DNA of 64,000 nt from Serratia marcescens (GTDB taxonomy: Bacteria; Pseudomonadota; Gammaproteobacteria; Enterobacterales; Enterobacteriaceae): assembly GCA_015548865.1 (NCBI GenBank), contig JADMXW010000015.1, forward strand, positions 62,001 to 126,000, given 5' to 3'. Below are positions 2,771 to 9,710 of this stretch, one piece after another. The notes beneath the pieces are model-generated. The model did not search any database and was not told where the DNA came from. It worked only from the letters and a program-made list of their open reading frames with translations. How positions within the stretch are numbered: position 1 is the first letter of the stretch; the number at the start of each line of letters is the position of its first letter. A program made the position numbers and the translations under genes.

Positions 2771-3526
2771 ATGAATAATACAAAAACAAAAGTGCCGGCT
2801 ATCGATAAGATGATTTTGCTGCTTGATTATCTTTCAACACGTAATGTAGCAACCTTCACCGAAATACATAATGCATTATCATTACCGAAAAGCAGCCTTT
2901 CCCTGATGTTGGCATCGCTGGTGACACACCGTCTGGTGAAATTTGAAAAAAACAAATATCACCTGGGTTTAAAAATGTATGAATACGGCAGCGCGGCGAT
3001 TCAGAATTTTAATGTGAAATCTGTTGCTCATACCCTATTGTCCGACCTGGTGAACAAACTCAATTTGACGTGCCATTTAGGCGTACTTGATGGTGATAGC
3101 CCTATCTATCTGGATAAAATTGAGAGTAACCAACTGATCAGTATCAAAAGTGTGGTAGGTAAGAAATTATCACTGCACAGTTCAGGGCTGGGTAAAGCGC
3201 TGATTTCTCAGCTAAGCGATGCAGAGTTAGATCGCCTGTTGCCGGAAGAGAATTTAGAAATTTTTACGCCTATGACGATCCCGACAAAAACCGCCCTGAA
3301 AAAAGAGCTGCAAGAGATCAGAAAAGTAGGCTATGCCTTTGACCGTGAAGAGGGGGATTTGGGTATATTTTGCATAGCCATGCCTATCTTTGATGGTAAT
3401 CACGATATTATTGCGGGTGTGAGCGTCACGGGTGTCACGTTCCAAATGCCTGAAACGCGACATGATGAAATTATTCATCAATTACGTGAAGCCTGCCAAA
3501 AAATTAGCCGTAAGCTGTATGAATGA
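2771..3526 (+). CDS. IclR-family transcriptional regulator
   Basis: A 251-residue regulator. An N-terminal winged helix covers about residues 8-70 (TFTEIHNALSLPKSSLSLMLASL then KYHLGLKMYEYGS). A C-terminal IclR effector-binding domain follows (LHSSGLGKALISQL, GYAFDREEGDLGIFCIAMPI). The ATG at 2771 is preceded by CCAGGAGC. It converges on the transporter gene of the five-gene catabolic operon and is the obvious candidate regulator of that operon. IclR proteins commonly control aromatic-acid and sugar-acid degradation. The effector and operator are inferred only; two palindromes before the first operon gene are candidate sites. Confidence 0.92.
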   Translation: MNNTKTKVPAIDKMILLLDYLSTRNVATFTEIHNALSLPKSSLSLMLASLVTHRLVKFEKNKYHLGLKMYEYGSAAIQNFNVKSVAHTLLSDLVNKLNLTCHLGVLDGDSPIYLDKIESNQLISIKSVVGKKLSLHSSGLGKALISQLSDAELDRLLPEENLEIFTPMTIPTKTALKKELQEIRKVGYAFDREEGDLGIFCIAMPIFDGNHDIIAGVSVTGVTFQMPETRHDEIIHQLREACQKISRKLYE

Positions 3527-3531
3527 AAATA

Positions 3532-3562
3532 AAAAAGAGCGCTGCTAGCAACGCTCTTTTTC
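3532..3562. terminator. Bidirectional rho-independent terminator between the IclR and MFS genes
   Basis: The arms AAAAGAGCG and CGCTCTTTT flank a 10-base loop. There are A residues on the left and T residues on the right, so the hairpin can stop transcription from both converging genes. Confidence 0.85.
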
Positions 3563-3574
3563 CATCTGACGTTA

Positions 3575-4873
3575 TTATTTATTTGCCGTTACTTTGGGTA
3601 GTGATAATGTTAGCAATGCGGCGATAATCAGCGACACTACCAACATTAATACCCCCATCTTGCTGCCTAAATAGAGCGAAATCAGTCCGACTAAATAAGG
3701 CCCACAAAACCCGCCCAAGCTGCCGATGGCATTGATTGTGCCGCGTGCACCGCCTAACGCTTCTGTAGGAAACAGCAGGGTTGGCATGGACCAATACGGA
3801 CCGGCCCATGCATTAAGGAAGAATCCGCCGCATACCAGCATGCCGTAGGAGAGCCAGACGTTTTCTTTTAGCACCACGGAAAGGGCTAATGAGAGCGCAA
3901 TACCAAAGAATGACAGCGCAGTAAATAGCCGTCGGTTCATGGTGGCATCACACAGTTTGGCGAAAATATATTGACCGATAATGGTAAAAATAAAGGGCAC
4001 TGCGGTTAGCAAGCCAACAACCGTCATGGTTGTTTTGGTGAGCTCGCTAATAAGCGTTGGCATCCACAGTGAGAAGCCATAAAAACCGGCAGACATAAAG
4101 AAGTAAATTGCTACCATGCGCCATAAGTTCAGGCTACGGTAGAGGGCTTTATAGCCGCCTTTAGACAGGGCACCCTGATTGCGTTTATTTTCTTCCGCAT
4201 CTTTGTGCAGCTCAGTTTCGATCCATTCCCGTTCTTGCGCAGAAAGCCATTTGGCATCTTTGGGATGGTCTGCGACCAATGGCAGCCAGATAAACAACAA
4301 TGCCAGTGAAACCAAACCTTCAACGATAAACATCACGCGCCAGTTGTAGTTTTGGATCAGCCAGCCAGAAATCGGGCTGGTGATGATCACCGCAATGGCC
4401 ATGTTCATCTGGAAAAACGCGATGGCCCTGGCCCGCTCTTTATTGGGGAACCAGTGGCCGATCAACGCTAGAATCGCAGGGTATACCCCGCCTTCCGCTA
4501 CACCGAGGAAGAAGCGCACCGTCATGAGTTGCCAGGTATTTTGCACAAAGCCAGATACCACGGCCAGACCGCCCCAAAAGACGATGGTCCAGGCAATAAA
4601 TTTTTTGGCGCTGGCTTTTTCTGCAAAGTGACCGCCAGGGATTTGCAAAAAGAGATAGCCAAAAAAGAAGATACCTGCAGCGGCACCGGCGACTGAGGAG
4701 GTAATGCCGAGATCTTTATCCATACCGCCAGCAATCGCAATCCCGATATTGGTGCGGTCCATAAATGCGACGATATAAACTAATATGGTGGCAGGAATAA
4801 TATGCCACCATCTGGCGTTGGGTATTTTTGCATCAACCTGATTGTAAGTTACTGCTGGATTAGTATTTTCCAT
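3575..4873 (-). CDS. MFS transporter, anion:cation symporter (ACS) family
   Basis: A 432-residue inner-membrane protein with about twelve hydrophobic segments. The ACS/phthalate-permease signature is clear: FMDRTNIGIAIAGG in helix 1, LGVAEGGVYPAILALIGHWFP around helix 4, ERARAIAFFQMNMA, and a charged central loop (about residues 195-235) with HPKDAKWLSAQEREWIETEL. Relatives such as GudP, GarP and ExuT import glucarate, galactarate or hexuronates with protons. It is last in the minus-strand operon, 166 bp after the dehydratase stop, and that gap holds a hairpin. Import of a sugar-acid-like anion for the upstream enzymes is inferred from context. Confidence 0.93.
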   Translation of the reverse strand: MENTNPAVTYNQVDAKIPNARWWHIIPATILVYIVAFMDRTNIGIAIAGGMDKDLGITSSVAGAAAGIFFFGYLFLQIPGGHFAEKASAKKFIAWTIVFWGGLAVVSGFVQNTWQLMTVRFFLGVAEGGVYPAILALIGHWFPNKERARAIAFFQMNMAIAVIITSPISGWLIQNYNWRVMFIVEGLVSLALLFIWLPLVADHPKDAKWLSAQEREWIETELHKDAEENKRNQGALSKGGYKALYRSLNLWRMVAIYFFMSAGFYGFSLWMPTLISELTKTTMTVVGLLTAVPFIFTIIGQYIFAKLCDATMNRRLFTALSFFGIALSLALSVVLKENVWLSYGMLVCGGFFLNAWAGPYWSMPTLLFPTEALGGARGTINAIGSLGGFCGPYLVGLISLYLGSKMGVLMLVVSLIIAALLTLSLPKVTANK

Positions 4874-4962
4874 ACTATAGACCTGCTATTATTATTAATT
4901 GGTAGGTACAGCGTATATTCCCGTCATAATTAAAACGGTGTGCATTATTCACTTCATCCTTG

Positions 4963-4983
4963 GGCCTCACGATAAGTGAGGCC
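4963..4983 (-). other. Intercistronic hairpin between dehydratase and transporter genes
   Basis: A perfect 8-bp stem (GGCCTCAC / GTGAGGCC) with a 5-base loop lies in the 166-bp gap. No U-run follows on the minus strand, so it is more likely a processing, mRNA-stability or partial attenuation element than a terminator. Confidence 0.5.
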
Positions 4984-5039
4984 ATATTCCTGCCGCGTAA
5001 ATTATTACGGGTGTAATGCCATCAATGATGACAATTTGG

Positions 5040-6710
5040 TTATTTCAAAACGGCGCCCTCATGTGCCGAGCTGGCTAATTGTGAGTAGATACCTAAAATA
5101 CCCTTGGTGAATTTACGTTTGGGCGCTTGCCATTGTTGTAACCGTTGAGTTATTTCTTCATCGGTTAAATGGGCATGAATCGTTTTGTTAGGGATATCAA
5201 TGGTTATAATGTCGCCATCACGCAGCGCTGCAATGGGACCGCCTTCTGCTGCTTCCGGTGAAATGTGACCAACAAAGCAGCCATTATTGGTGCCAGAGAA
5301 GCGGCCATCGGTAATGATGGCGGTGTTACTGGCGAGCCCCATACCGTAGAGGTATTTCATGGCCTTGAACATTTCACGCATTCCGGGGCCGCCTTTGGGG
5401 CCTTCATAGCGAATGACCAGTACATCGCCGGGTTTGATATGTCCGGCCAGAATGGCTTCCTCGGCAGCATCTTCACTGTCGAAACAGACCGCTTTTCCGG
5501 TGAAATGGCGCATTTCTGGTAAAATAGCGGCCGGTTTTGTTACCCCACTTTTGGGGGCGATATTACCTTTGAGAATGGCGATACCGCCCTGAGGTGCAAA
5601 AGGTGCCTCTATGGGTTTAATGATGTCACGGTTAGGTTGATACAGCAGATTCATCGCCGCCAGGTTTTCACCTACAGTTTGCCCGGTAACGGTTAATGCG
5701 CCTTTTTCCAGTAATCCGCTGATTTCATGCATCACTTGTGGAATGCCGCCTGCACGGTGAAAATCTTCCATATCGAACTTCGCTGCCGGGTTCACCTTGA
5801 CGATTTGCGGCGTGCTGTCGCTCAGCTCTTCATACAGATCCATCATGGTTTCGGCAGAGATATCAAGCTCATGCGCCAATGCTGAGAGGTGCAGGACGGC
5901 ATTGGTGGAGCCGCCAATCGCCATCAATACCCTGATGGCGTTTTTAATCGCATCGATCGTAATAATGTCGCGGGCGGTAACGTTGTTTTTCACCATGTTC
6001 ATGATGGCAAAACCAGTGCTTTCACCCAGGCGCAGGCGTTCGGAATAAACAGCAGGTGTCAGTGCGCCATTGGGCAATGTCATGCCGATGGCTTCCGACA
6101 GGCTGCACATGGTGTTGGCTGTGCCGAGGAATGAACAGGAGCCGCAGGTCGGGCCGCAAGTGTTTTCCAGTCGCTGACAAACGTCTTCGGTGATTTTGCC
6201 TGCTTTCAGCATGCCCAGCGATTCGGACATGGTGGTCAGGTCCGATTTGCGTCCGTCGAACACTTCGCCGCCCAGCATCGGGCCTCCCGGCAGAATAATC
6301 GCAGGAATATCCAGACGTGCTGCGGCCATCAGCATCGCGGGAACGATTTTGTCGCAAGAGCCGAGCATCACGATGGCATCCAACTGATGGGCTTCTACCA
6401 TGATCTCGATATCGTTGGCGATCATATCCCGTGATGGCAGGATGTAGTGCATGCCCTTATGGCCTTGTGCTGTGCCGTCACAGGCAGCAATCAGACCAAA
6501 CTCCACGGCGGTGCCGCCCGCCATGTGGATGCCTTTTTTCACCGACTCGCCGACCTGACGAAGATTGAAATGGCCGGGTACCAGTTCATTCCAAGAGTTG
6601 GCGATACCAATGACAGGTCTTTTAAGATCTTCATCAGAATAACCGATGCTTTTAAATACGCTACGGTTAAAACCCCACTCAAGGCTTCCTAATATTTTTT
6701 GGCTTCGCAT
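5040..6710 (-). CDS. IlvD/Edd-family dehydratase (dihydroxy-acid or aldonate dehydratase)
   Basis: A 556-residue Fe-S dehydratase. Candidate cluster and active-site residues are Cys77 (AACDGTAQGH), Cys119 (LGSCDKIVPAML), and Cys185/189/192 (CGPTCGSC). The C-terminal half has ILKGNIAPKSGVTK, RYEGPKGGPGMREM, the GLASNTAIITDGRFSGT block and GHISPEAAEGGPIA. The family removes water from 2,3-dihydroxy acids to give 2-keto-3-deoxy acids. It is shorter than E. coli IlvD (about 616 residues). The setting is catabolic (aldolase, acyl-CoA-forming dehydrogenase, anion transporter), not an ilv operon, so an aldonate-type substrate is more likely than branched-chain synthesis. That specificity is inference. 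GAGG lies 8 bases before the ATG. Confidence 0.9.
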   Translation of the reverse strand: MRSQKILGSLEWGFNRSVFKSIGYSDEDLKRPVIGIANSWNELVPGHFNLRQVGESVKKGIHMAGGTAVEFGLIAACDGTAQGHKGMHYILPSRDMIANDIEIMVEAHQLDAIVMLGSCDKIVPAMLMAAARLDIPAIILPGGPMLGGEVFDGRKSDLTTMSESLGMLKAGKITEDVCQRLENTCGPTCGSCSFLGTANTMCSLSEAIGMTLPNGALTPAVYSERLRLGESTGFAIMNMVKNNVTARDIITIDAIKNAIRVLMAIGGSTNAVLHLSALAHELDISAETMMDLYEELSDSTPQIVKVNPAAKFDMEDFHRAGGIPQVMHEISGLLEKGALTVTGQTVGENLAAMNLLYQPNRDIIKPIEAPFAPQGGIAILKGNIAPKSGVTKPAAILPEMRHFTGKAVCFDSEDAAEEAILAGHIKPGDVLVIRYEGPKGGPGMREMFKAMKYLYGMGLASNTAIITDGRFSGTNNGCFVGHISPEAAEGGPIAALRDGDIITIDIPNKTIHAHLTDEEITQRLQQWQAPKRKFTKGILGIYSQLASSAHEGAVLK

Positions 6711-6737
6711 AATTAAAACCTCATATAATCATTAGTA

Positions 6738-7772
6738 TTATTGTGCTTGCTTGGTGTTGGCGTTTTTTAAATCCAATGCAACATCGACAATCATGTCTTC
6801 CTGACCGCCGACCATTTTGCGTTTTCCGAGCTCCATCAAAATGTCCATGGTGCTGATGCCGTATTTTTGCGCTGCACGTTCAGCATGCAGTAAAAAGCTG
6901 GAATACACTCCGGCGAGTCCGAGCGATAAGGTTTCGCGATCGACGCGCACTGGACGGTGTTGCAACGGGCGCACCACATCGTCAGCACCGTTGATCAACG
7001 TGTCCAATTGACAGCCGTGCTGCCATCCCTGTTTTTCCAGACAGCCGATAAATACTTCTGTGGGGGTATTTCCCGCGCCAGCCCCCATGCCCGCCAGGCT
7101 GGTATCTACCCGATCGCAGCCCTCTTCAATGGCGGTGAGCGAGTTGGCGATACTGACGGAAAGATTATTGTGCGCGTGCATGCCGGTCTGGGTATCGCTG
7201 TTCAGGATGGCTTTCAGCGCACGGAAGCGATCGCGAATGTCCTGCATTAGCATGGCGCCGCTGGAGTCCACGACGTAGATGCAATTTGCGCCATAGCTCT
7301 CCATTTTTTTCGCCTGCTCAGCCAGTTCCTGTGGCGTAATCATGTGACTCATCATCAGAAAACCGACGGTGTCCATACCGAGGTTACGTGCAAATTCAAT
7401 ATGTTGCTTGGAGATATCGGCTTCAGTGCAGTGGGTGGCAACGCGAACCACGCGTGCGCCTGCATCATAGGCGGCTTGCAAATCATGGGTGGTTCCGACG
7501 CCGGGGATCAGCAACGTGGCAATTTTACTGTGGGTGACAACGTCTGCGGCGGCGGCGATCATCTCGGTATCGGCGCAGCGGCTGAAACCATAGTTAAAGC
7601 TCGATCCTGCCAGCCCATCTCCGTGAGCGATCTCAATAGAATCTACATGTGCCCTGTCCAGCACCGTAGCGATCTGCTGAACCTGTTCTTGCGTGTACTG
7701 GTGTTTAACGGCATGGGAGCCGTCGCGTAAGGTTACGTCTGAGATGTAGATTTTTTTATTATTCATCATCAT
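6738..7772 (-). CDS. mhpE: 4-hydroxy-2-oxovalerate aldolase (HOA / MhpE family)
   Basis: A 344-residue class II pyruvate aldolase with a DmpG/MhpE TIM barrel. The N-terminal [20 protein letters not shown] holds the conserved Arg-Asp metal site. [15 protein letters not shown] supplies the His metal ligands, and [12 protein letters not shown] is conserved. The C-terminal communication domain (about residues 275-340) is the part that binds the acetaldehyde dehydrogenase for channelling. The known reaction is 4-hydroxy-2-oxopentanoate to pyruvate and acetaldehyde. Its partner gene is next to it, 19 bp away. Three ATG codons in tandem make the exact start uncertain by two residues. No aromatic meta-cleavage genes are nearby, so its substrate is probably formed by the adjacent dehydratase. 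Confidence 0.9.
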
Positions 7773-7791
7773 TCTCTTTTATCGCTGAGGA

Positions 7792-8724
7792 TTAATTTTT
7801 CAGGTTCTTGGCAAAATGGTCACCGCAGGCTAAAGCGGCGGAGGTCATAATATCCAGGTTGCCGGCATAGGCAGGTAAATAGTGGGCAGCACCTTCCACT
7901 TCGATAAATACCGATGTTTTTAGTCCTGTAGTGTATTTTTCTCCGTCGATAAAAAGCGGGTTGTCCTCATTGATAACATCGAATTGCACGGCCTGTTTTA
8001 AGCGATATCCCGGCACATAGCGGCTGACTTTTTGCACCATGCTGTGAATGCTGGCTTCAATTTTTTCGGGTGCGACATTGGCGGAATAGGTAAAGACGGT
8101 GTCGCGCATCATGATAGGCGGTGACGCTGGATTGAGAATAATAATGGCTTTTCCGGCGCGCGCTTTACCCACGTTAACAATGGCGGCAGACGTGGTTTCA
8201 GTAAATTCGTCAATATTGGCGCGGGTACCGGGTCCAGCCGATTTGCTGGCGATACTGGCAACAATTTCGGCATAGTAAACGTCTGTTACCTGTGCCACTG
8301 CATTGACGATGGGAATGGTTGCCTGGCCGCCGCAGGTGACCATGTTGATATTCGCCGCGTCACTTTCTTGCTCTAGATTAATGGAAGGAACGACATAAGG
8401 ACCGATGGCCGCCGGTGTTAGGTCAATCACCTTAATGCCGAACGGTTGCAGCTTTTCGTTGTGTACCAGATGTGATTTGGCGGAAGTGGCGTCGAAAACG
8501 ATTTTAATGTCTTGGAAATTGGGCAATCCCAGCAGTCCGTCGATGCCCTCGGCAGAAACCGGCACGCCTAATCGCGAAGCGCGGGCCAAACCGTCTGATG
8601 CGGGATCGATACCGATCATCGCGCCCATACTCAGGTATTGACTGTTTTTCATTATTTTGAACATCAAGTCAGTGCCAATATTTCCTGAACCAATAATGGC
8701 TGCCTGTATTTTTTCACTACCCAT
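7792..8724 (-). CDS. mhpF: Acetaldehyde dehydrogenase (acylating), MhpF/DmpF family
   Basis: A 310-residue enzyme with an N-terminal NAD-binding fold ([17 protein letters not shown]) and the active-site region [20 protein letters not shown], whose Cys forms the acyl-thioester. [22 protein letters not shown] is a family block. It oxidises acetaldehyde (or another short aldehyde) to acyl-CoA with NAD and CoA, in a complex with the aldolase. Its ATG lies three bases after the stop of the upstream DHDPS-family gene, with AAGGAATAAACC as ribosome site, so the two are co-transcribed. The length is normal for the family. Confidence 0.92.
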
Positions 8725-8727
8725 GGT

Positions 8728-9636
8728 TTATTCCTTTTCTTCACGTAATGGCAGAAGGTCTTTTAATTCCGCAATATGTTCTGGTGAAAGCACATTTGTT
8801 TTATTGAGGGCACCGTCAGACGAACAGATTCCCGTCATCGCTAACAGATGTTTGAGTAAATCAGGCAAGGGCGCGGTAATGGAAAAAAGTTGCGCCAGAT
8901 GTGATAATTCACGCCGTTGTTTAAATACGGCAGAGTAGTTTTCTGCGCAAAAACTCTCATAGAGTTTCACGGTGACAGCGGGAGAGAAATTAGCAGTCGC
9001 TGGAAAACCGCCATCGCCCCCTAATATCAGCGTGTCTAACAGGTATTCGTCGTAGCCTGCAAAAATAAGGAAATCTGGGCGGTGAGGTTTCACCTGATTA
9101 ATCAATTCCCGAATGTGGCTGATATTATTAATGGTATCTTTAATGCCGATTATCGAAGGGAATTGCTGCGCCAAACGGTTCACCATATCGGCAGAAATCG
9201 TATGTCCTGTCAGCTGCGGAAAATTATAAATCATGATTGGCAGAGCAAGATTTTCCGCCACGGTTTGGTAAAAGCAAAAAAGGCCCTCAGCGCTGAGCGG
9301 CGCATAATAAGGGTTGATGACCAATACGGCATCCGCGCCGCAGCTCGCTGCATGTTGCCCGAAATACAGGACATCATCGATGCAGGTGCCGCCGATGCCG
9401 AGAATCACTGGCACACGACCGTTAACATAATCAACCACAAACTCTGCAGTTTCCTGACGTGTTTCACGGCGCAAGGCATAAAATTCGCCGCAAGTGCCCA
9501 GTGCTAACACACCGTGAACGCCAGCGTTAATCACTTGATCCAGCAACCTGCTCATGGCTTGTTTGTCGAGGTTCCCTTCACCATCCGTCAATGTGGGTAG
9601 CGGTGGAATCACGCCTTTAATTCGATCTGCTTTCAT
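8728..9636 (-). CDS. Dihydrodipicolinate synthase / N-acetylneuraminate lyase family protein
   Basis: A TIM-barrel Schiff-base aldolase or dehydratase of about 302 residues and first gene of the operon. Visible blocks are GVIPPLPTLTDGEGNLD, GVHGVLALGTCGEFYALRR (the G-T-x-G-E motif), ADAVLVINPYYAPLS, LPIMIYNFPQLTG (catalytic Tyr) and SIIGIKDTINNISHI (Schiff-base Lys). Members cleave or form 2-keto-3-deoxy acids such as KDG, or dehydrate them. I chose the ATG at 9636, where homology begins (MKADRIKG). Alternatives are ATG 9666 and GTG 9678; none has a strong ribosome site. It may act on a 2-keto-3-deoxy acid made by the operon's dehydratase; the exact reaction is unknown. Confidence 0.87.
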   Translation of the reverse strand: MKADRIKGVIPPLPTLTDGEGNLDKQAMSRLLDQVINAGVHGVLALGTCGEFYALRRETRQETAEFVVDYVNGRVPVILGIGGTCIDDVLYFGQHAASCGADAVLVINPYYAPLSAEGLFCFYQTVAENLALPIMIYNFPQLTGHTISADMVNRLAQQFPSIIGIKDTINNISHIRELINQVKPHRPDFLIFAGYDEYLLDTLILGGDGGFPATANFSPAVTVKLYESFCAENYSAVFKQRRELSHLAQLFSITAPLPDLLKHLLAMTGICSSDGALNKTNVLSPEHIAELKDLLPLREEKE

Positions 9637-9675
9637 TCTATTCACTATATTGAACAAGAGTTCCATATAATAAAC

Positions 9676-9710
9676 CACTCAAAGGGTGAGTGATTCAACC
9701 TCAGGGTTGA
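9676..9710 (-). promoter_or_regulatory. Two adjacent palindromes before the catabolic operon
   Basis: CACTCA with TGAGTG (9676-9692) and TCAACC with GGTTGA (9695-9710) are perfect inverted repeats a few bases apart, just upstream of the first operon gene. They are candidate operators for the IclR regulator or leader hairpins. Assignment to a protein is inference. Confidence 0.4.

Follow-up and report, generated by a model that had tools for sequence, protein, structure and literature searches.

An IlvD/Edd-family dehydratase encoded with MhpE and MhpF in a Symbiopectobacterium-like genome: a candidate route for 5-deoxypentonate catabolism

The aldolase MhpE cleaves 4-hydroxy-2-oxopentanoate, which in aromatic pathways is made by MhpD through the hydration of 2-oxopent-4-enoate. 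A stretch of 64,000 nucleotides deposited as Serratia marcescens (assembly GCA_015548865.1, contig JADMXW010000015.1, positions 62,001 to 126,000; hereafter the window) encodes MhpE and MhpF in one operon with a dehydratase of the IlvD/Edd family, and the question is what supplies MhpE with its substrate there. The operon (window 3575-9678, minus strand) has the order YagE-like aldolase, MhpF, MhpE, IlvD and MFS transporter, with gaps of 3, 19, 27 and 166 bases between the genes (Table 1). An earlier reading of the DNA (the original prediction) had claimed a five-gene operon, and this is borne out: all five genes lie on the minus strand and each has a profile match to its family. The span it gave, 3575..9636, is right in its gene set; the end at 9636 is an internal ATG, and the aldolase may begin at a GTG at 9678 or at another internal ATG at 9666.

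The probability that this operon serves the catabolism of a 5-deoxypentonate (2,3,4-trihydroxypentanoate) is put at roughly 0.5. In the proposed route, the MFS protein would import the acid and the dehydratase would remove water from it to give 4-hydroxy-2-oxopentanoate, which is exactly the compound that an IlvD-family reaction on 2,3,4-trihydroxypentanoate yields. MhpE would cleave this intermediate to pyruvate and acetaldehyde; the aldehyde would then be converted to acetyl-coenzyme A (acetyl-CoA) by MhpF, acting in a complex with MhpE. The YagE-like aldolase is probably responsible for cleaving the (4R) isomer or other 2-keto-3-deoxypentonates. The IclR protein is the probable regulator of the operon, with the substrate as its likely signal.

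An aromatic origin of the MhpE substrate finds no counterpart in the window. With E. coli MhpA-F and MhpT as queries, the 64 kb give matches only to MhpE and MhpF, in agreement with the earlier statement that no aromatic-ring genes are nearby. Thus, the operon shares MhpE and MhpF with the lower meta-cleavage pathway (MhpD-MhpE-MhpF, DmpEFG), but the MhpA-MhpD genes of the mhp type are not found beside them in the window and IlvD occupies the place of MhpD. A genome-wide search for MhpD at E 1e-5, run without a positive control, gives no match; one LigB-family match of 267 amino acids is present in the genome, and the LigB family also gives a match in E. coli.

The pairing of IlvD with MhpE is not confined to this operon. 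Comparison of neighbours across genomes, which the original prediction had proposed as a check, finds MhpE in 15 of the 58 loci of the IlvD subfamily (12 of them outside Symbiopectobacterium) and an MhpD match at E 1e-8 in none, many loci stopping at contig ends, which weakens the absence there. The gene orders vary and include MhpF-MhpE-IlvD, IlvD-MhpF-MhpE, IlvD-GntP-MhpF-MhpE (L029, where a GntP gluconate-type permease lies between IlvD and MhpF) and IlvD-SDR-SDR-MhpF-MhpE. Locus L012 has MhpF-MhpE-IlvD-MFS, the order of the window, and 11 further loci outside Symbiopectobacterium pair IlvD with MhpE; the grouping of the operon genes is therefore not due to chance. SDR-cluster genes occur in 20 of the 58 loci, and a gluconolactonase-family gene in L014.

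Surveys centred on MhpE give the neighbours of this enzyme at large. In a Clostridia class sample of 391 genomes, MhpE exceeds the cut-off in 11, one being the chosen centre; MhpD adjoins MhpF and MhpE in nine of the other ten places, and the remaining place is at the end of a contig. An IlvD-family gene also lies near one of these nine (L081), but it carries Met and an SGATQ loop at the marker positions described below. In the class of the window genome, MhpE occurs in 23 of 369 genomes, the window genome included. In 17 of 23 MhpE places outside that genome, an MhpD-family match lies no more than 1.5 kb away; a wider look at the six others, three of them on contigs shorter than 8 kb, shows no IlvD.

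The dehydratase carries pocket markers that set its subfamily apart from branched-chain enzymes. Of the 56 subfamily rows readable at position 82, 54 have Gln, the window protein among them, and the other two have Asn and Met; the loop of the catalytic Ser reads SGTNN in 57 of 58. These counts cover the IlvD proteins of the 58 loci, after removal of five rows, from the same loci, that belong to other IlvD/Edd types; 59 rows are kept (L052 being in two pieces), three with a gap at position 82 and one with a gap at the loop. MtDHAD, SynDHAD and the canonical IlvD of the same genome have Met and SGGT at these positions, and the chloroplast DHAD chains compared have Met at the equivalent of position 82. 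Gln82 corresponds to Met100 if the 6ovt chain is assumed to carry 25 extra N-terminal residues. This Met is described as fully conserved in branched-chain enzymes, where it replaces the C-terminal His of sugar-acid dehydratases (PMC11316719, excerpt). The Edd and YjhG-type enzymes of the genome have Gln at the equivalent position, and so does an uncharacterised IlvD-like protein in L011; Gln therefore occurs outside the sugar-acid enzymes of established function as well. Against reference proteins, the subfamily forms one clade (Shimodaira-Hasegawa-like approximate likelihood-ratio test 99, quick tree). The genome carries a canonical IlvD elsewhere (L001, PRK12448 1205.8 bits), together with Edd, a YjhG/YagF-type enzyme and one relative under every cut-off. 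The canonical copy, the pocket markers and the separate clade argue that the operon IlvD is not an ordinary branched-chain enzyme.

With its E. coli counterpart, the window MhpE shares 74% identity and the window MhpF 63%, and both score above the cut-offs of their family models. In BphI, the aldehyde pocket owes its shape to Leu87 and Leu89, and Tyr290 makes the enzyme select the (4S) isomer (PMC3962088, excerpt). The corresponding DmpG positions 88, 90 and 291, numbered with an inferred offset of one, are Leu, Leu/Ile and Tyr in the window MhpE and in every IlvD-linked copy that covers them; one of 17 MhpD-linked or aromatic rows has Arg at 88 and 90. The catalytic residues Arg17, Asp18, His21, His200, His202 and Tyr291 (DmpG numbers) are identical in 14 IlvD-linked rows and the same 17. 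By alignment, the residues behind the specificity of BphI for (4S)-4-hydroxy-2-oxopentanoate are retained in MhpE. No MhpD was found in the IlvD loci, the pairing recurs, and the pocket is divergent in IlvD but retained in MhpE; most likely, therefore, IlvD takes over the role of MhpD as the source of 4-hydroxy-2-oxopentanoate. The original prediction that an IlvD-type dehydratase makes this compound for MhpE is thereby strengthened, while its substrate and isomer stay conditional and ordinary pentonates retain some probability.

The combination appears to have arisen more than once. In the MhpE tree (37 rows, fragments of L031 and L007 omitted), the Symbiopectobacterium copies fall within a 12-row proteobacterial DmpG set (100/100), apart from those of anaerobes, and a separate origin is clear from this placement. 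The label "IlvD-linked anaerobe" needs seven changes on this tree, at least five of them forced by well-supported branches, and six changes on the MhpF tree (33 rows), at least two of them forced. On the IlvD tree (63 rows), carriage of MhpE and MhpF also takes seven changes, of which five or more are forced; this tree omits a duplicate, fragments and distant types (nine sets of rows in all) and scores L052 as lacking MhpE and MhpF, though both lie about 12 kb away on its contig. The changes may be gains or losses. IlvD and MhpE-MhpF thus seem to have joined more than once, the core apparently having been assembled repeatedly in anaerobes.

The pocket residues also bear on the isomer. Pentonate dehydratases of the superfamily accept sugar acids provided that the configuration at C2 and C3 is unchanged (PMC5770437, excerpt); for RlArDHT, an S centre at C4 is preferred and the best substrate is D-fuconate, a 6-deoxy acid (PMC11316719, excerpt). 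Combined with a (4S)-specific MhpE, these preferences lead to (2R,3S,4S), and the best single guess is therefore 5-deoxy-L-arabinonate, with perhaps one chance in four and far less assurance than the class of substrate; the stereochemical labels are the authors' own working. As a natural substrate, 5-deoxy-L-arabinonate could derive from L-rhamnose by loss of C1, a speculative source that would be open to plant- and gut-associated bacteria. Another candidate, 5-deoxy-D-ribonate from 5'-deoxyadenosine, was rejected, as by the same working the D-series would give a (4R) product, which wild-type BphI does not use.

Known systems resemble parts of the operon. Non-phosphorylative pentonate Route I (Dahms type; E. 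coli YjhG/YagF and YagE/YjhH; scheme in PMC6336799, excerpt) likewise has an IlvD/Edd dehydratase, a YagE-like aldolase, a transporter and IclR. The operon differs in its dehydratase subfamily and in the presence of MhpF-MhpE, and its predicted second product is acetyl-CoA rather than glycolaldehyde. The nearest chemical parallel proposed for the dehydratase is SalH of salinosporamide biosynthesis, a dihydroxyacid dehydratase proposed to convert 5-chlororibonate to 5-chloro-4-hydroxy-2-oxopentanoate (PMC7408626, excerpt); the likeness is one of described reaction. SalM-SalH and FdrC-FdrB are SDR and dehydratase pairs, as in many IlvD loci, and FdrB possibly acts on a fluoro acid (PMC5947533, excerpt). 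As described in these excerpts, both systems differ from the operon in being biosynthetic and halogenated, and SalQ rather than an aldolase is proposed to act next. The dihydroxyacetone phosphate shunt (MtnK, MtnA and Ald2; PMC12632272, excerpt) also disposes of 5-deoxypentose carbon, but, as described there, is phosphorylative, has no acid stage and uses other enzymes. Among the matches listed in open-access literature, which leaves subscription journals mostly uncovered, no 5-deoxypentonate catabolic pathway and no description of this gene combination is found. It is proposed, at slightly less than even odds, that the operon represents an undescribed 5-deoxypentonate route that several lineages assembled independently: a new IlvD subfamily would replace MhpD, and the (4S)-4-hydroxy-2-oxopentanoate it makes would pass to MhpE and MhpF recruited as a pair. 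If so, 5-deoxy sugar acids would become a class of catabolic substrate for which open-access searches showed no route. A dehydratase subfamily that occurs in symbionts, Treponema and gut Firmicutes, and that standard models assign to amino-acid biosynthesis, would gain a function. The MhpE-MhpF of aromatic catabolism would then be suggested as a tail that other pathways recruit.

Two further cassettes of the same genome bear on the origin of the operon. On contig 8 (L103:5014-9723), relatives of the MFS protein (61%), the IlvD/Edd dehydratase (38%), the YagE-like aldolase (46%) and the IclR regulator (46%) occur together, the dehydratase being below every NCBIfam cut-off; this type of cassette is also found in two genomes from another family of the order. 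On contig 11, sugar ABC transporter-like genes accompany a dehydratase that passes the cut-off of the YjhG/YagF D-xylonate dehydratase model and a YagE-like aldolase (42%). Both cassettes have the YagE-like aldolase without MhpE and MhpF. The window operon, which itself brings together the dehydratase, DHDPS-family aldolase, transporter and regulator of Route I, is plausibly a variant of non-phosphorylative aldonate catabolism; from these likenesses it looks like an aldonate cassette in which the dehydratase was exchanged and MhpF-MhpE added. Among 394 sampled genomes of the order, the operon-type IlvD is found at E 1e-180 in the window genome only, which suggests that it was acquired. In plasmids, the IlvD matches 858 records, all at less than 60% identity; against 5426 E. 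coli genomes, the operon gives partial matches in 347, the 20 matches listed all being to mhpE or mhpF. The window genome (5.39 Mb), that of an insect-symbiont-like bacterium, is placed close to Candidatus Symbiopectobacterium by its operon IlvD, which is 96-99% identical to that of three records of this group (L006-L008). In one of these, Candidatus Symbiopectobacterium endolongispinus (L007:5992-7970, plus the MFS gene that follows IlvD), MhpF, MhpE and the MFS protein are each in two pieces, and the operon seems to be decaying.

Several observations weigh against the predicted substrate, a 5-deoxypentonate. The operon has no sugar dehydrogenase or lactonase gene, and no second IlvD-MhpE pair is found in the 369 genomes of the class, with no IlvD match in the 23 MhpE stretches as first taken. 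A search at E 1e-60 gives no MhpE match in 35 of 50 subfamily genomes, many of them draft metagenome-assembled genomes (the 50 draw on 50 of the 58 loci and omit L006, L007, L008, L028, L050, L053, L058 and L062); the dehydratase must therefore have other partners and serve other routes in the MhpE-less genomes. These genomes, the YagE-like aldolase as first gene of the operon and the sister cassettes, one with a dehydratase of YjhG/YagF type, would suit ordinary pentonates: IlvD would form a 2-keto-3-deoxypentonate, the YagE-like aldolase and/or MhpE would release pyruvate and glycolaldehyde, and MhpF would make glycolyl-CoA or act on a side product. The fit of the aldolase keeps this explanation in play, but it is unlikely, as it leaves MhpE-MhpF unexplained, places leucines where the C5 group would lie in a pocket like that of 4-hydroxy-2-oxopentanoate enzymes, and gives no specific reason for the recurrence of IlvD with MhpE-MhpF and without MhpD. 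Another deoxy or reduced acid, such as a 6-deoxyhexonate cleaved to lactaldehyde with MhpE-MhpF adapted to the different aldehyde, is improbable; the window MhpE does have Leu286, at a position that is Tyr in 33 of 34 other rows, and the D-fuconate preference of RlArDHT, of the same superfamily, agrees with such a substrate, yet this MhpE retains the residues by which BphI restricts the size of its aldehyde.

The least probable explanation, and a very improbable one, is that no new pathway exists and that a spare branched-chain IlvD, or a remnant of aromatic catabolism, lies beside MhpE-MhpF by chance. The operon IlvD passes two DHAD models (PRK00911, 675.7 against 644; TIGR00110, 656.7 against 618.15), its nearest solved relatives are branched-chain dihydroxy-acid dehydratases, and the window MhpE nests among aromatic-pathway DmpG proteins. 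The protein ends in ...HEGAVLK, without the C-terminal His of the sugar-acid dehydratase (SADHT) class, and has PGH in place of the PCN of the first cluster Cys, as does the canonical IlvD of the genome; because it lacks both, it fits neither [2Fe-2S] class named in PMC11316719 (excerpt). As main explanations, however, a spare amino-acid enzyme is rejected because of the canonical copy and the differing pocket, Met being replaced by Gln and the loop by SGTNN throughout the subfamily, and an aromatic remnant because of the window search for mhp genes and the recurrence in distant anaerobes. The 5-deoxypentonate route is thus retained as the preferred reading.

Table 1. Features of the operon and its flank in the window
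Feature	Position	Strand	Evidence
IclR-family regulator, convergent with operon	2771..3526	+	Pfam IclR_C, HTH_IclR; 46% relative in sister cassette L103
Terminator-like hairpin, 14 pairs, after MFS gene	3531..3562	-	Consensus scan
MFS transporter, galactonate-transporter-like	3575..4873	-	Pfam MFS_1; best NCBIfam TIGR00893 (D-galactonate transporter) 268 bits, below cut-off 395
IlvD/Edd-family dehydratase, distinct subfamily	5040..6710	-	Pfam, NCBIfam; Gln82, SGTNN loop; tree
MhpE/DmpG 4-hydroxy-2-oxovalerate aldolase	6738..7772	-	TIGR03217 559.6 bits, cut-off 286; DmpG_comm domain
MhpF/DmpF acylating acetaldehyde dehydrogenase	7792..8724	-	TIGR03215 444.6 bits, cut-off 282.25; catalytic Cys131 in CGGQ
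YagE-like DHDPS-family class I aldolase	8728..9678	-	First operon gene; Pfam PF00701

YagE is the nearest solved structure to the first gene product, and the Lys of the GIKDT stretch aligns. Relatives of the MFS gene also lie beside IlvD genes in L012 and L009. The hairpin 3' of the MFS gene is a weak hint of a terminator, since such sites are near chance number in the region (11 observed, 8.5 expected, standard deviation 2.8); promoter-like sites are at chance level, and the content of guanine plus cytosine in the operon is unremarkable.

Other loci with MhpE-MhpF or IlvD show further arrangements. In a Lachnospiraceae genome that also has an IlvD locus, a second MhpF-MhpE (L095:5384-10013) lies beside a group 22 nickel-pincer isomerase, for which no solved relative was found, and a galactarate/altronate-type dehydratase; here another, non-homologous sugar-acid dehydratase may stand in for MhpD and provide a second route to 4-hydroxy-2-oxopentanoate. 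A group 22 nickel-pincer isomerase is also encoded downstream of MhpF-MhpE-IlvD in L011 (9806-11062), with relatives clustered in four loci, and is perhaps a C2 epimerase of the acid. On a plasmid of Pseudomonas veronii 1YdBTEX2 (L113:13031-18791), and in L111, MhpF-MhpE is followed by a GntP-type permease (so annotated in L111), with an IclR regulator and a gene like D-lactate dehydrogenase linked to flavin adenine dinucleotide near and no MhpD or ring-cleavage gene annotated nearby; this cluster might oxidise 2,4-dihydroxypentanoate to feed MhpE. Locus L013 (1412-14239), which L015 and L017 resemble, has the order IlvD-SDR-MhpF-MhpE. It also encodes an esterase, an iron alcohol dehydrogenase and sugar ABC transporter components, as well as a divergent glycyl radical enzyme together with the activase for it. 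In L013 this radical enzyme reaches no NCBIfam cut-off, and the structures closest to it are of the dehydratase type. On one Lachnoclostridium contig, an IlvD split in two frames (L052:7995-9673) and MhpF-MhpE (L091:8120-10020) are separated by the 12 kb noted above, with sugar ABC transporter-like genes between.

Beside the IclR gene, positions 617-2718 of the window hold genes for a GntR-family regulator (617-1420) and an ADP-ribosylglycohydrolase-family protein (about 1486-2415), which are kept in all three Symbiopectobacterium loci.

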